DNA of 55,267 bases from Actinomycetes bacterium. GTDB lineage: Bacteria; Actinomycetota; Acidimicrobiia; Acidimicrobiales; Ilumatobacteraceae. A model generated the notes under the pieces. It was not told where the DNA came from, did not search any database, and was given only the letters and a program-made list of their open reading frames with translations. Where the stretch lies: positions 1 to 55,267 of the forward strand of contig JANXUF010000026.1 in NCBI GenBank assembly GCA_025356335.1. Reading direction: 5' to 3'. Each line of letters starts with the position of its first letter. The stretch's first letter is position 1. Below are positions 3,258 through 18,260 of the stretch, piece after piece. Position numbers and translations under genes: made by a program.

Positions 3258-3653
3258 GTGGATCTCGATCGGAACGGCCAGCGAATTCTCACACCTGCTG
3301 AATGCCGGCAACTCCTTGCGACCACTCGAGATGGCCGAATCGCCCTGTCAGAGCATGCCCTCCCGACCATCGTGCCTGTCGTCTATCGCGTCGATGGGGC
3401 CACCGTCGTCTTCGGTGTCTCGGGTGGACTGCTCGCAGCGGCAGCCGAACGGGGTGACGTTGTGTGCTTCGAGGCGGACTTCGCCAGTGCCGACGAGAGC
3501 GAACTGTGGAGTGTAATCGTCGTCGGCAAGCTCAGGCTCAGCCCGCTCGAGCCCATTGCCAGCCAACACGCAACGGCGAGGTGTGGTGTCGGCATCGTTT
3601 CGCTGCCGATGACGATCGTCTCGGGACAGGCGACGATGTCGGTGTTTGCATGA
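3258..3653 (+). CDS. pyridoxamine 5'-phosphate oxidase-family flavin-binding protein
   Basis: A 131-residue split-barrel protein. The pattern ILTPAECRQLLATTRDGRIA, LPTIVPVVYRVDGATVVFGV and WSVIVVGKLR matches the small PPOX/flavin-nucleotide-binding proteins abundant in actinobacteria, many of them stress or hypoxia induced. Such proteins bind FMN, FAD or F420; the ligand cannot be told here. The start is a GTG at 3258 with weak ribosome-binding sequence. It is followed 307 bp later by PEP synthase on the same strand and is the first clearly intact gene right of the mobile-element debris. Confidence 0.8.
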   Translation: MDLDRNGQRILTPAECRQLLATTRDGRIALSEHALPTIVPVVYRVDGATVVFGVSGGLLAAAAERGDVVCFEADFASADESELWSVIVVGKLRLSPLEPIASQHATARCGVGIVSLPMTIVSGQATMSVFA

Positions 3654-3960
3654 TCTCGGTCGCTGGCGGCAGCCGTAGCTGACGCGGCGACCCTTTGCGG
3701 CGGGCGGCGAATTGTTGCCAATGGGACCTTCCCCTGTCCGCGGGCCCGTCGACGTGCCCATAGTCGATTCTGCCGGCCGATTTGAGGCGGATATGCCACG
3801 ACTCAGTGAACTGAAGGACATCACCCATCACCGGCTGATCTCGGGACCTTCGGCACTGTTGCTGCGAATGCCATCGGGGTTCGATGAAGAGAGCGGAACT
3901 CCCCGGTTGATTCTCGGCACCGTCGCTGCGAAGACGAGGCCGCACGTCAAGGAGTCTGTC
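3654..3960 (+). other. 307-bp intergenic region upstream of PEP synthase
   Basis: No gene recognised. The PEP-synthase frame stays open upstream to 3712, but this extension has no family similarity and no ribosome-binding site. Two GGGACCTT words occur (near 3721 and 3842). They recall half of a DosR box but lack the second half at the proper spacing, so I do not call a site. Confidence 0.4.
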
Positions 3961-16108: not shown

Positions 16109-17763
16109 GTCGACACCGGTGCGGGTTCGATGCTGCACACACCGGCGGGGCAGACGCGGTCGACGATATGGGCGACGTACTCGTCACGAAAGTAGCGCAG
16201 GGTGCTGAAGATCGGGTTCGGGGCGCCCTGGCCGAGGCCGCAGAGGCTCGTCCGCTGAACCATGTGGCCGAGCCGCTCCATCTGTGCGAGGTCGTCCATC
16301 GTCGCCTCTCCGGTGGTGATCCGTTCGAGCAGCATGAACAGTTGCGTCGTCCCCACCCGACAGGGCACGCATTTGCCGCACGACTCCTCTCGGCAGAAAT
16401 CCATGAAGTATCTCGCCACGTCGACCATGCACGACGTCTCGTCCATGACGATCATGCCACCGGACCCCATGAACGAACCGACGCCGATGAGCGATTCGTA
16501 GTCGACGCCCATGTCGAGGAACTCGGACGGGATGCAGCCGCCGGACGGACCGCCGGTCTGTACCGCCTTGAAGGCACGGCCGTCGACGATCCCGCCGCCG
16601 ATGTCGAAGACGATCTCGCGCAGCGTCGTGCCCATCGGCACCTCGATCAGCCCGGTGTTGACGACACGTCCGGCGAGCGCGAAGACCTTTGTTCCCTTGC
16701 TCGTGGCGGTGCCGAGACCGGCGAACCAGGAGCCACCCTTGCGGATGATCGGCGCGACGTTGGCGAACGTTTCGACGTTGTTGATCAGCGTCGGTTGGTG
16801 CCACAGACCGGCGACCGCTGGATACGGAGGCCGCGTCCTCGGCGTGCCACGACCACCTTCGAGCGAGGCGATGAGGGCGGTTTCCTCGCCGCAGACGAAG
16901 GCGCCCGCACCTTGGCGGATGTCGACCTCGAAACTGAACTCGGTGTCGAGCATCGATGCGCCGAGGTAGTTCGATCGACCCGCTGCCTGGATCGCTTTGT
17001 GCAGGCGACTCACGGCGAGCGGGTACTCGGCACGGCAGTAGACATAGCCGATGCTGGCGCCGACGGCATATGCGGCGATCGCCATCCCTTCGAGGACGCG
17101 GTACGGGTCGCTCTCGAGCACGCTCCGGTCCATGAACGCTCCGGGGTCGCCCTCGTCGGCGTTACAGATGACGTACTTTGGTGAGCCGATGGCCTTGGCG
17201 ACGGTGTTCCACTTGAGGCCGGTCGGGTAGCCGGCCCCACCGCGACCGCGCAGGCCGCTGCGGGCGATCTCGTCGCGTACCTCCGCCGGCGTCATCGTGC
17301 TCAGTACCGTACGGAGCGCCTGGTACCCGCCACTGGCGACGTAGTCCTCGAGGCTTTCGGGGTCGATGCGCCCGGAGTTCTCCGTCACGATGCGGAGCTG
17401 CCGACTGAAGAAGGGCGCTTCGGGAACCCGCTCGCCGCCAGGAACCGCTGCTGCGAGTGCTTCGACGATCCCGCCGAGGTTGTCGGGCACGACGTGGGCG
17501 AACAGTTCGCCGGTCTCGGGGATCTGCACGAGCGGCCCTGCGGCACACAGCCCGAGGCAGCCGACGCGCTTGACCTCGACGTCGGTCAGCCCGGCGGCAG
17601 CGACCCGCTCGCCGAGGCCGAGGAGCACGTCGTGCGACTGCATCGACAGGCAGCTGACCGCCTCACAGACGTAGGCTGACGCCCGCGTGGGGCCGACGTG
17701 GGCCGGCAGGTTGACGACCCGCCGGCGCGGTCGCGCTGATGTGGTTGCCGATGATTCGCTCAT
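16105..17763 (-). CDS. hoxF: hydrogenase diaphorase subunit, NuoF-like (NAD/FMN-binding)
   Basis: A 552-residue flavoprotein that exchanges electrons with NAD(H). It starts with a thioredoxin-like [2Fe-2S] domain (CEAVSC ... GCLGLCAAGP). Then come the FMN/NAD-binding core with GLRGRGGAGYPTGLKW and CNADEGDPGAFMDR, an SLBB segment (MGTTLREIVFDIGGG) and the C-terminal [4Fe-4S] site ESCGKCVPCRVG. Length matches HoxF/NuoF fusions. It overlaps hoxE (4 bp) and hoxU (4 bp), so HoxE, F and U are translationally coupled. Confidence 0.95.
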   Translation of the reverse strand: MSESSATTSARPRRRVVNLPAHVGPTRASAYVCEAVSCLSMQSHDVLLGLGERVAAAGLTDVEVKRVGCLGLCAAGPLVQIPETGELFAHVVPDNLGGIVEALAAAVPGGERVPEAPFFSRQLRIVTENSGRIDPESLEDYVASGGYQALRTVLSTMTPAEVRDEIARSGLRGRGGAGYPTGLKWNTVAKAIGSPKYVICNADEGDPGAFMDRSVLESDPYRVLEGMAIAAYAVGASIGYVYCRAEYPLAVSRLHKAIQAAGRSNYLGASMLDTEFSFEVDIRQGAGAFVCGEETALIASLEGGRGTPRTRPPYPAVAGLWHQPTLINNVETFANVAPIIRKGGSWFAGLGTATSKGTKVFALAGRVVNTGLIEVPMGTTLREIVFDIGGGIVDGRAFKAVQTGGPSGGCIPSEFLDMGVDYESLIGVGSFMGSGGMIVMDETSCMVDVARYFMDFCREESCGKCVPCRVGTTQLFMLLERITTGEATMDDLAQMERLGHMVQRTSLCGLGQGAPNPIFSTLRYFRDEYVAHIVDRVCPAGVCSIEPAPVST

Positions 17764-18260
17764 AGCTGCTCCAACCTGGCGACGAACTCGCGCGGCACGA
17801 CCCGGCCCTGGACCTCGCCGTCGACGACCGCCACCGGGGCGAGGCTGCAGGCACCCAGGCAGCGTGCGGTGAGGAGCGACAGTTTGCCGTCGGCGGTGGT
17901 CTCGTGCGGCTTCACCCCGAGTTCCGCCTTGATTGCCGAGAGGATCTCACGCGCACCGTTGATGTAGCAGGCGGTGCCGGTGCAGACGACGCAGGCGTGC
18001 TCACCGAGCGGCTTGAGCGTGAAGTGATGGTAGAAGGTGACGACGCCGAACACCTTCGAGGGCGGGATCGCGAGGCTCTCGCCGATGAATCGCAGGGCGT
18101 CGTCGTCGATGTAGCCGAATGCCTCCTGTGCGGAGTGCAGCGCCTCGATGAGCGCCTCGGGACGGTTGCCGAGGCGGCGCATCCGCGATTCGACCACGCG
18201 CCAGCGCCTGTCGTCGGTCGGCGCAACGGGCCGTGCCGTGCGCACCGGCACAGCAGTCAT
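17760..18260 (-). CDS. hoxE: hydrogenase diaphorase subunit, NuoE-like
   Basis: A 166-residue [2Fe-2S] thioredoxin-fold protein like NuoE. It has the helical N-terminus (ALIEALHSAQEAFGYIDDDA), VTFYHHF, and the four cluster cysteines in CTGTAC and CLGAC. It is the first gene of the hox set and has the set's only upstream gap: 179 bp to the next minus-strand gene. The ATG at 18260 has AGGGA almost touching it. The presence of HoxE assigns the complex to the five-subunit HoxEFUYH form known from cyanobacteria and many soil bacteria. The operon promoter should lie in 18261-18439, where I see no clear regulator site. Confidence 0.92.
   Translation of the reverse strand: MTAVPVRTARPVAPTDDRRWRVVESRMRRLGNRPEALIEALHSAQEAFGYIDDDALRFIGESLAIPPSKVFGVVTFYHHFTLKPLGEHACVVCTGTACYINGAREILSAIKAELGVKPHETTADGKLSLLTARCLGACSLAPVAVVDGEVQGRVVPREFVARLEQL

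Follow-up and report, generated by a model that had tools for sequence, protein, structure and literature searches.

A Hox hydrogenase block in an Ilumatobacteraceae genome as a probable patchwork variant of the DosR-type low-oxygen locus

DosR is best known as the persistence regulator of mycobacteria, and the metabolic purpose of its regulon is still debated. Hyh, the hydrogenase of the closest mycobacterial locus that we compare here, is a group 3b enzyme. We studied a stretch of 55267 nucleotides (contig JANXUF010000026.1 of GenBank assembly GCA_025356335.1; hereafter the window) from an actinobacterium of the Ilumatobacteraceae, order Acidimicrobiales, in which genes for a Hox [NiFe]-hydrogenase, a fusion of a GNAT domain with an acyl-CoA synthetase (GNAT/ACS), a cation ATPase, a PfkB-type kinase, phosphoenolpyruvate (PEP) synthase and a PPOX-type protein lie together at positions 3258 to 18260. 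We consider it moderately probable that a DosR-type response to low oxygen uses this block for fermentation, a probably acquired hox operon having been joined to a dormancy locus. In Mycobacterium smegmatis, a DosR-type cluster near devR/devS, msmeg_3926-3955, is reported to be induced when oxygen is at 2.5% and to combine a hydrogenase (msmeg_3927-3931; Hyd3, or Hyh) and its maturation protease with PEP synthase and a cation P-type ATPase (PMC2799521). The window shares with it a [NiFe]-hydrogenase operon with protease, the cation P-type ATPase and PEP synthase, whereas it encodes HoxEFUYH instead of Hyh, adds a GNAT/ACS—not mentioned in the part of that paper on which we draw (PMC2799521)—has its DosR on another contig and carries no DosR-type box at hoxE. 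The original prediction had presented the mycobacterial genes as separate and those here as one unit; as a novelty this does not hold, since the M. smegmatis cluster already unites hydrogenase, P-type ATPase and PEP synthase (PMC2799521). We therefore describe the block as a variant, put together as a patchwork, of a DosR-type hypoxia locus that is already known; Hox takes the place of the mycobacterial Hyh, and the GNAT/ACS is an addition. The second close system is the DosR/DevR-type regulator OsdR of Streptomyces coelicolor, for which a consensus, AGGGCCGATCGGCCCT, and sites at PPOX (SCO0214), USP and pyruvate phosphate dikinase (SCO0208) genes are reported, the dikinase gene being among the targets tested by binding (PMC5069765). 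A PPOX gene has a site both there and in the window; the words hydrogenase, ATPase and phosphofructokinase are absent from the main text of the OsdR paper (PMC5069765). Searches of open-licence PMC papers for a link between DosR and hox listed none with Hox under DosR as its topic by title or start of abstract.

The one-direction layout of hox, ACS, ATPase and pfkB genes, with PEP synthase converging on it and a PPOX gene beyond, is as originally claimed in genes, strands and families. A single minus-strand run from 18260 to 6272 holds hoxE (17760-18260; 2Fe-2S thioredoxin-like subunit, PF01257), hoxF (16105-17763; NAD/FMN diaphorase subunit, PF01512 and PF10589), hoxU (15389-16138, likely start 16108; diaphorase Fe-S subunit, HoxU equivalog NF005745, 346.5/333 bits as score/cut-off), hoxY (14862-15392; hydrogenase small subunit, PF01058), hoxH (13431-14852; [NiFe]-hydrogenase large subunit, PF00374), a HoxW-type maturation protease gene (12895-13434; TIGR00072, 75.8/47.45 bits), the GNAT/ACS gene (10058-12811; N-terminal GNAT domain and ADP-forming acyl-CoA synthetase by family matches), the P2-type cation ATPase gene (7299-10061, by family matches) and pfkB (6272-7234; PfkB-type hexose-phosphate kinase, TIGR03168, 238.9/216.4 bits). 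On the plus strand lie PEP synthase (pyruvate, water dikinase; 3961-6285, TIGR01418 751.5/739.75 bits and NF005057 790.4/598 bits), whose start is most likely the ATG at 3961 and whose end overlaps that of pfkB tail to tail by 14 bp, and the PPOX-type gene (Pyridox_ox_2; 3258-3653, PF12900, E 3.5e-15). The claimed 4-bp overlaps are present at hoxE/F, U/Y, H/W and ACS/ATPase, and that of hoxF/U is 4 bp from the internal ATG at 16108 or 34 bp from an upstream GTG; spacers are 9 bp at hoxY/H, 64 bp at ATPase/pfkB and 83 bp, the largest, at hoxW/ACS. A pattern scan found no terminator-like site between block genes (5 hits against a shuffle mean of 5.8), a sigma-70 promoter scan of 3100-19700 gave no match, and an Rfam scan of window positions 1-20000 gave none up to E 0.05.

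The genome probably encodes a low-oxygen regulon with a DosR/DevS-type pair, haem binding being a prediction. The DosR-type regulator on contig C92 (4449-5105) has DevR (3c3w) as its best PDB match, at 259 bits, the next scoring 136. The adjoining kinase has a single GAF domain, HisKA_3 and HATPase; the top five PDB hits, at 160-164 bits, are all sensor domains, of which four carry the name DevS and the fifth that of a "probable histidine kinase response regulator," and no further PDB match exceeds 68 bits (the next is 67). Its H112 and Y134 are spaced like the residues that we take to be His149 and Tyr171 of DevS. Across the 5.57-Mb genome the pattern STAGGGCCNNNNGKC has 17 sites, the reversed pattern used as a control having 50, and the subset starting with CTAG, CTAGGGCCNNNNGKC, has seven. 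Six of them, on C48, on C102 and in the window, precede a USP, PPOX or CBS gene with a Pfam match; for C48:6602, C102:29220 and C102:30430 this holds only if translation begins at a codon within the longest open frame. The remaining site, on C112, is at an unrelated gene. A search with the mycobacterial-type box, TTSGGGACTWWAGTCCCSAA, turned up no strong match in the window, C92 or C102, whereas the OsdR-like form did match, and the sites of this genome resemble the published OsdR consensus (PMC5069765).

One of the seven sites, CTAGGGCCCAGAGGCAC (3209-3225, minus strand), lies 33 bp before the PPOX start and, under a position weight matrix (PWM) built from six sites outside the window, is the best match among 55251 scored window positions (18.0 versus 12.0 for the next). 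A weaker DosR-type box around GGGACCTTCGGCAC (3840-3859, PWM 9.2, rank 7 of 55251) lies about 100 bp before PEP synthase; its core, CGGGACCTTCGGCACT, agrees in 15 of 16 bases with an OsdR site, CGGGACCTTCGGCCCT, printed in the OsdR paper (PMC5069765), and is two bases off GGGACCTTTGGCCC, which is found at hoxE of three related hox loci (L128, L141 and L149). Upstream of the window's own hoxE (18261-18439, minus strand), no DosR-type box was found, the best PWM match there ranking 336 of 55251. Given this distribution of PWM matches, regulon membership is well supported for PPOX and suggestive for PEP synthase, while the run from hox to pfkB is without such support; the window's hox promoter may never have joined a DosR-type regulon, or may have left it. 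A further PPOX-family gene (PF01243) lies at 24306-24773 on the minus strand, and a PWM match of 11.6 at 24731, near its 5′ end, is the window's third best.

Elsewhere in the genome, contig C102 holds genes for arginine deiminase, ornithine carbamoyltransferase, an amino-acid kinase, an amino-acid permease, CBS and USP proteins, a PPOX protein, phosphoketolase and acetate kinase. We also noted there (L193 and L194, a dormancy or anaerobic island) a BON protein and one or more P-type ATPases, the phosphoketolase and acetate kinase forming an Xfp-AckA pair; strong DosR-type sites number three on C102, and xfp is preceded by a weaker one (14.2). On C139, a frame of 1242 residues encodes a POR_N protein, a possible homologue of pyruvate:ferredoxin oxidoreductase (PFOR), and C32:42000-52500 (L234) contains the end of a second [NiFe]-hydrogenase large subunit, a protease, HypF, HypC, HypD and an AIRS-type (HypE-like) gene; this set could supply maturation.

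Evidence for a link between hox and DosR comes from relatives. Of 13 actinobacterial loci, seven have exact GGGMCNNNNGKCCC boxes within 300 bases upstream of hoxE (200 shuffles: mean 0.24, maximum 2), compared with one of 54 from other phyla (mean of shuffles 0.25) and a background of 16 among 834 300-base tiles of the same actinobacterial loci; in L141, L149 and L181, a second, one-mismatch box lies 21 to 22 bases from the first. The 13 loci are 12 from our GTDB scan plus that of G013 (L119 and L125 had too little upstream sequence and were dropped, as were, for short contigs or lack of a HoxE match, 12 of the 66 from other phyla), and not every one counts as independent, since L141 is closely related to L149 and L178 to L181. 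Downstream of hox, L126, L136 and L149 encode PFOR (TIGR02176), as does L128, where the gene is cut by the contig end. The fullest neighborhood is that of L118 (Pseudonocardiales), where 21 kb hold acetate kinase, phosphoketolase, DosR (59%), USP, hoxEFUYHW, PPOX, an Acg-family gene and PEP synthase (59%), together with a second nitroreductase-type gene and a CBS gene. A gene at 16126-16554 of this locus, considered as a second PPOX, was rejected because it had no Pfam match.

The window's hydrogenase genes, with HoxEFU diaphorase and HoxYH hydrogenase in a single run, point to a group 3d Hox enzyme, to which the subunits are identical in kind and which, in relatives of the window's hox, is linked to DosR-type boxes. 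The HoxH translation contains RICGICPVSH and DPCLSCSTH, which provide the CxxC Ni ligands and which we take to be motifs L1 and L2. Group 3d [NiFe]-hydrogenases work in both directions, and sequence analysis does not fix the direction. The window's Hox could thus oxidize H2 to NADH, or serve as a redox valve in oxygen, in which case the block would not be fermentative; we regard this as improbable, as the PFOR adjacency and DosR boxes of relatives favor electron disposal at low oxygen and the second [NiFe]-hydrogenase of the genome could handle H2 oxidation. In L143 and L181, a second, distant [NiFe]-hydrogenase was seen within about 5 kb of hox (HoxH 28%; HoxY 31% in L181).

How the hox genes came to lie here is a separate question. 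HoxH (E up to 1e-60) is found in nine of 298 genomes of the order, including that of the window; seven of the other eight have hoxEFUYH, G043 having HoxH and HoxY relatives only. The order genomes G105, G015, G213, G198 and G290 appear to correspond to L126, L136, L143, L149 and L178. In the HoxH tree, the window protein is sister to that of a metagenome-assembled genome (MAG) of Dermatophilaceae (89% identity, support 100/100), the other five rows of its set being Chloroflexota (99/97), and six other order genomes are placed apart. GC content at third codon positions (GC3) is 0.84-0.88 in the six hox genes, 0.78-0.80 in ACS, ATPase and PfkB, and 0.79 ± 0.04 in 12 other window genes. Because of this higher GC3 and the odd placement of HoxH, we consider it most likely that hox was acquired separately and then joined to the rest of the block. 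The hoxE upstream regions of the window and of L112, its nearest relative, are no more alike than shuffles (score 24; shuffled mean 18, maximum 33).

These same features also fit another history, in which hox landed by chance next to an ACS-ATPase-PfkB unit that has nothing to do with it, with separate transcription and regulation and only general energy metabolism in common. The 83-bp gap between hoxW and ACS, the integrase gene and integrase-like remnants within 3.3 kb left of the block, and the boxless hoxE all agree with such an insertion, as do the elevated GC3 and the grouping of HoxH away from its own order. We nevertheless judge it unlikely, since the hox operons of relatives carry DosR-type boxes and several sit with PFOR, DosR or PEP synthase, and since homologues of the ACS and the ATPase are likewise found in dormancy-type neighborhoods; with DosR or dormancy links among the relatives of each, the hox half and the ACS/ATPase half point to one condition.

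For the GNAT/ACS, this link rests on 42 of 297 other order genomes with homologues (36-44%). Among the matches listed, DosR lies within 10 kb of the GNAT/ACS gene in at least 10 of the 42 genomes and within 750 bases in at least four, the first figure being a lower bound; G060 and G151 (GC 0.51-0.52) are included in the 42 and excluded from statements on neighbors. The neighborhood comparison covered 15 of the 42 relatives. The GNAT/ACS gene shares 4 bp with a PPOX gene in G290, follows DosR and a kinase in G038, lies with DosR, USP, PPOX, CBS and arginine deiminase genes in G264, and follows PFOR in G115. In G015, G105 and G198, a 40%-identical GNAT/ACS lies 14 to 22 kb from hox. No dormancy marker was found in the neighborhoods of G008, G154 and G241 (hypD is 7 kb off in the last), and that of G005 has a 31% regulator only.

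We favor the view that the synthetase of the window's GNAT/ACS is active and ADP-forming and that the same protein includes an acetyltransferase, because H458 and the ATP-grasp histidine are widely kept: of the 101 homologues with 850 residues or more, 89 share H458 with the window protein and 92 have the ATP-grasp histidine, and H458 aligns with the same histidine in 2csu and in two structures named as ADP-forming ligases, 8wzu and 9y43. The protein thus has both the phospho-histidine of the alpha part and the ATP-grasp histidine, the active-site residues of ADP-forming acyl-CoA synthetases. It could instead be a lysine acetyltransferase of the type II GNAT kind whose synthetase domain only senses acetyl-CoA and which tunes enzymes and makes no ATP. 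The domain order is that of type II GNATs such as PatA of Streptomyces lividans, an N-terminal GNAT with a CoA P-loop and a C-terminal NDP-forming synthetase, and the GNAT part matches PDB 4u5y/4nxy (99 bits), which we take to be S. lividans PatA. A review describes type II synthetase domains as inactive and without the catalytic histidine (PMC8556138), from which the window protein differs in keeping its histidine. This acetyltransferase role, which is compatible with a low-oxygen function of the block, is a real possibility that we find somewhat doubtful.

As a candidate for a Ca-efflux pump of the CtpF type known from the DosR regulon, the ATPase is P2-type by its families, with Na,K-ATPase and the Listeria Ca pump lmo0841 as nearest solved relatives, and reaches no P2 subfamily cut-off. 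Contigs that carry an ACS and an ATPase 96% identical to those of the window also exist, the longest being 113,894 and 229,303 bases. Its homologues (56-61%, E up to 1e-260) occur in seven of 395 other genomes of the phylum, and the 20-kb stretches around them include USP genes in four (G061, G337, G379 and G625), PEP synthase-type genes in two and CBS genes in two, with none of these in the stretches of G502, G442 and G373. In P0144, a prediction of 1148 residues, a PPOX domain is attached to a close homologue (73%) of the ATPase; we set it aside as a Rosetta-stone PPOX-ATPase fusion, since its ATPase end reads as frame-shifted and the two are at most neighboring genes. PfkB has relatives in 10 of 297 other order genomes (37-46%), and in profile searches the window protein reached neither the 6-phosphofructokinase II nor the 1-phosphofructokinase equivalog cut-off.

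Several observations weigh against assigning the block to a DosR-type response. The exact hox-ACS-ATPase-PfkB order is absent from all compared order genomes and GTDB hox loci, contrary to the expectation that the neighborhood would be conserved in related genomes: ACS, ATPase or PfkB adjoins hox in none of the seven other order genomes with hoxEFUYH, and the trio lies beside hox in none of 80 GTDB hox loci, part of them short contigs, where relatives of the GNAT/ACS (four), the ATPase (two), PEP synthase (five) and PfkB (none) were found at >80 bits. Phylogeny and GC3, as described, mark the window's hox as probably acquired. No PWM box lies upstream of the window's hoxE, ACS or PfkB, its hoxE has no consensus match at up to two mismatches, and neither L112 nor G013 has a hoxE box even at one mismatch; L118 has no exact box despite encoding DosR. 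At least two kinds of dormancy marker occur in the examined flank of only one of 14 actinobacterial hox loci, L118, and of none of the 66 of other phyla, and DosR at 59-63% is found in just three of the 14. All nine HoxH-bearing order genomes have DosR (E up to 1e-50) versus 151 of 298 overall, giving a simple product of ∼0.002, uncorrected for kinship; since DosR is common in the order, this co-occurrence is weak evidence. Boxes directly upstream of GNAT/ACS in relatives (two of 29) are not clearly above shuffles (mean 0.37, maximum 4 in 100), the review mentioned above calls type II synthetase domains inactive, and a link of the PfkB relatives to DosR was not found among the DosR places listed, two of which share the contig of the PfkB relative at 34 and 54 kb (G134 and G024 encode DosR at places other than those listed). 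The low-oxygen fermentative use originally proposed thus stands in part. It is backed by the DosR/DevS-type pair, the PPOX site, the weaker PEP synthase box, the hoxE boxes of relatives and the dormancy-type neighbors of ACS and ATPase homologues; conservation of the exact block is not borne out, and with no box before the window's hoxE, its co-regulation with the rest is unproven.

If the block does act as a fermentative arm, falling oxygen would lead the DevS-like kinase to phosphorylate DosR, which would switch on PPOX and probably PEP synthase. PFOR, encoded beside hox in relatives and possibly elsewhere in this genome, would yield acetyl-CoA, from which the synthetase domain would make acetate and ATP, while HoxEFUYH would dispose of NADH electrons as H2. 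The P2-type ATPase would keep the ion balance, while the movement of carbon through the hexose-phosphate and pyruvate/PEP steps would be governed by PfkB and PEP synthase.

To the left of the block, the window holds a tyrosine integrase gene (PF00589; 210-1421, minus strand), beside it a sequence reading like a tRNA 3′ end (∼1530-1565, GGTTCGAGTCCC...CGCCCACC), for which ARAGORN and Rfam give no tRNA, and, closer to the block, a broken integrase-like stretch at ∼2240-3115. Together these appear to be signs of past integration adjoining the block.

On a wider scale, the Acidimicrobiia-type DosR regulon could be a full fermentation program—Hox, PFOR, a GNAT-linked ADP-forming acetyl-CoA synthetase that conserves energy, phosphoketolase/acetate kinase and arginine deiminase under a DosS/DosR pair that senses oxygen—of which the mycobacterial regulon would be a reduced descendant, with Hyh and Hox as interchangeable H2 outlets; we put this forward tentatively, as an idea that falls somewhat short of probable. 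In this lineage, CTAGGGCCNNNNGKC provides a recognizable site for mapping such a regulon. GNAT/ACS fusions in such islands may make ATP, beyond acetylating proteins, and a DosR-type system tied to an H2/acetate fermentation kit in environmental Actinobacteria would make it a testable proposal that dormancy genes began as a fermentation program.

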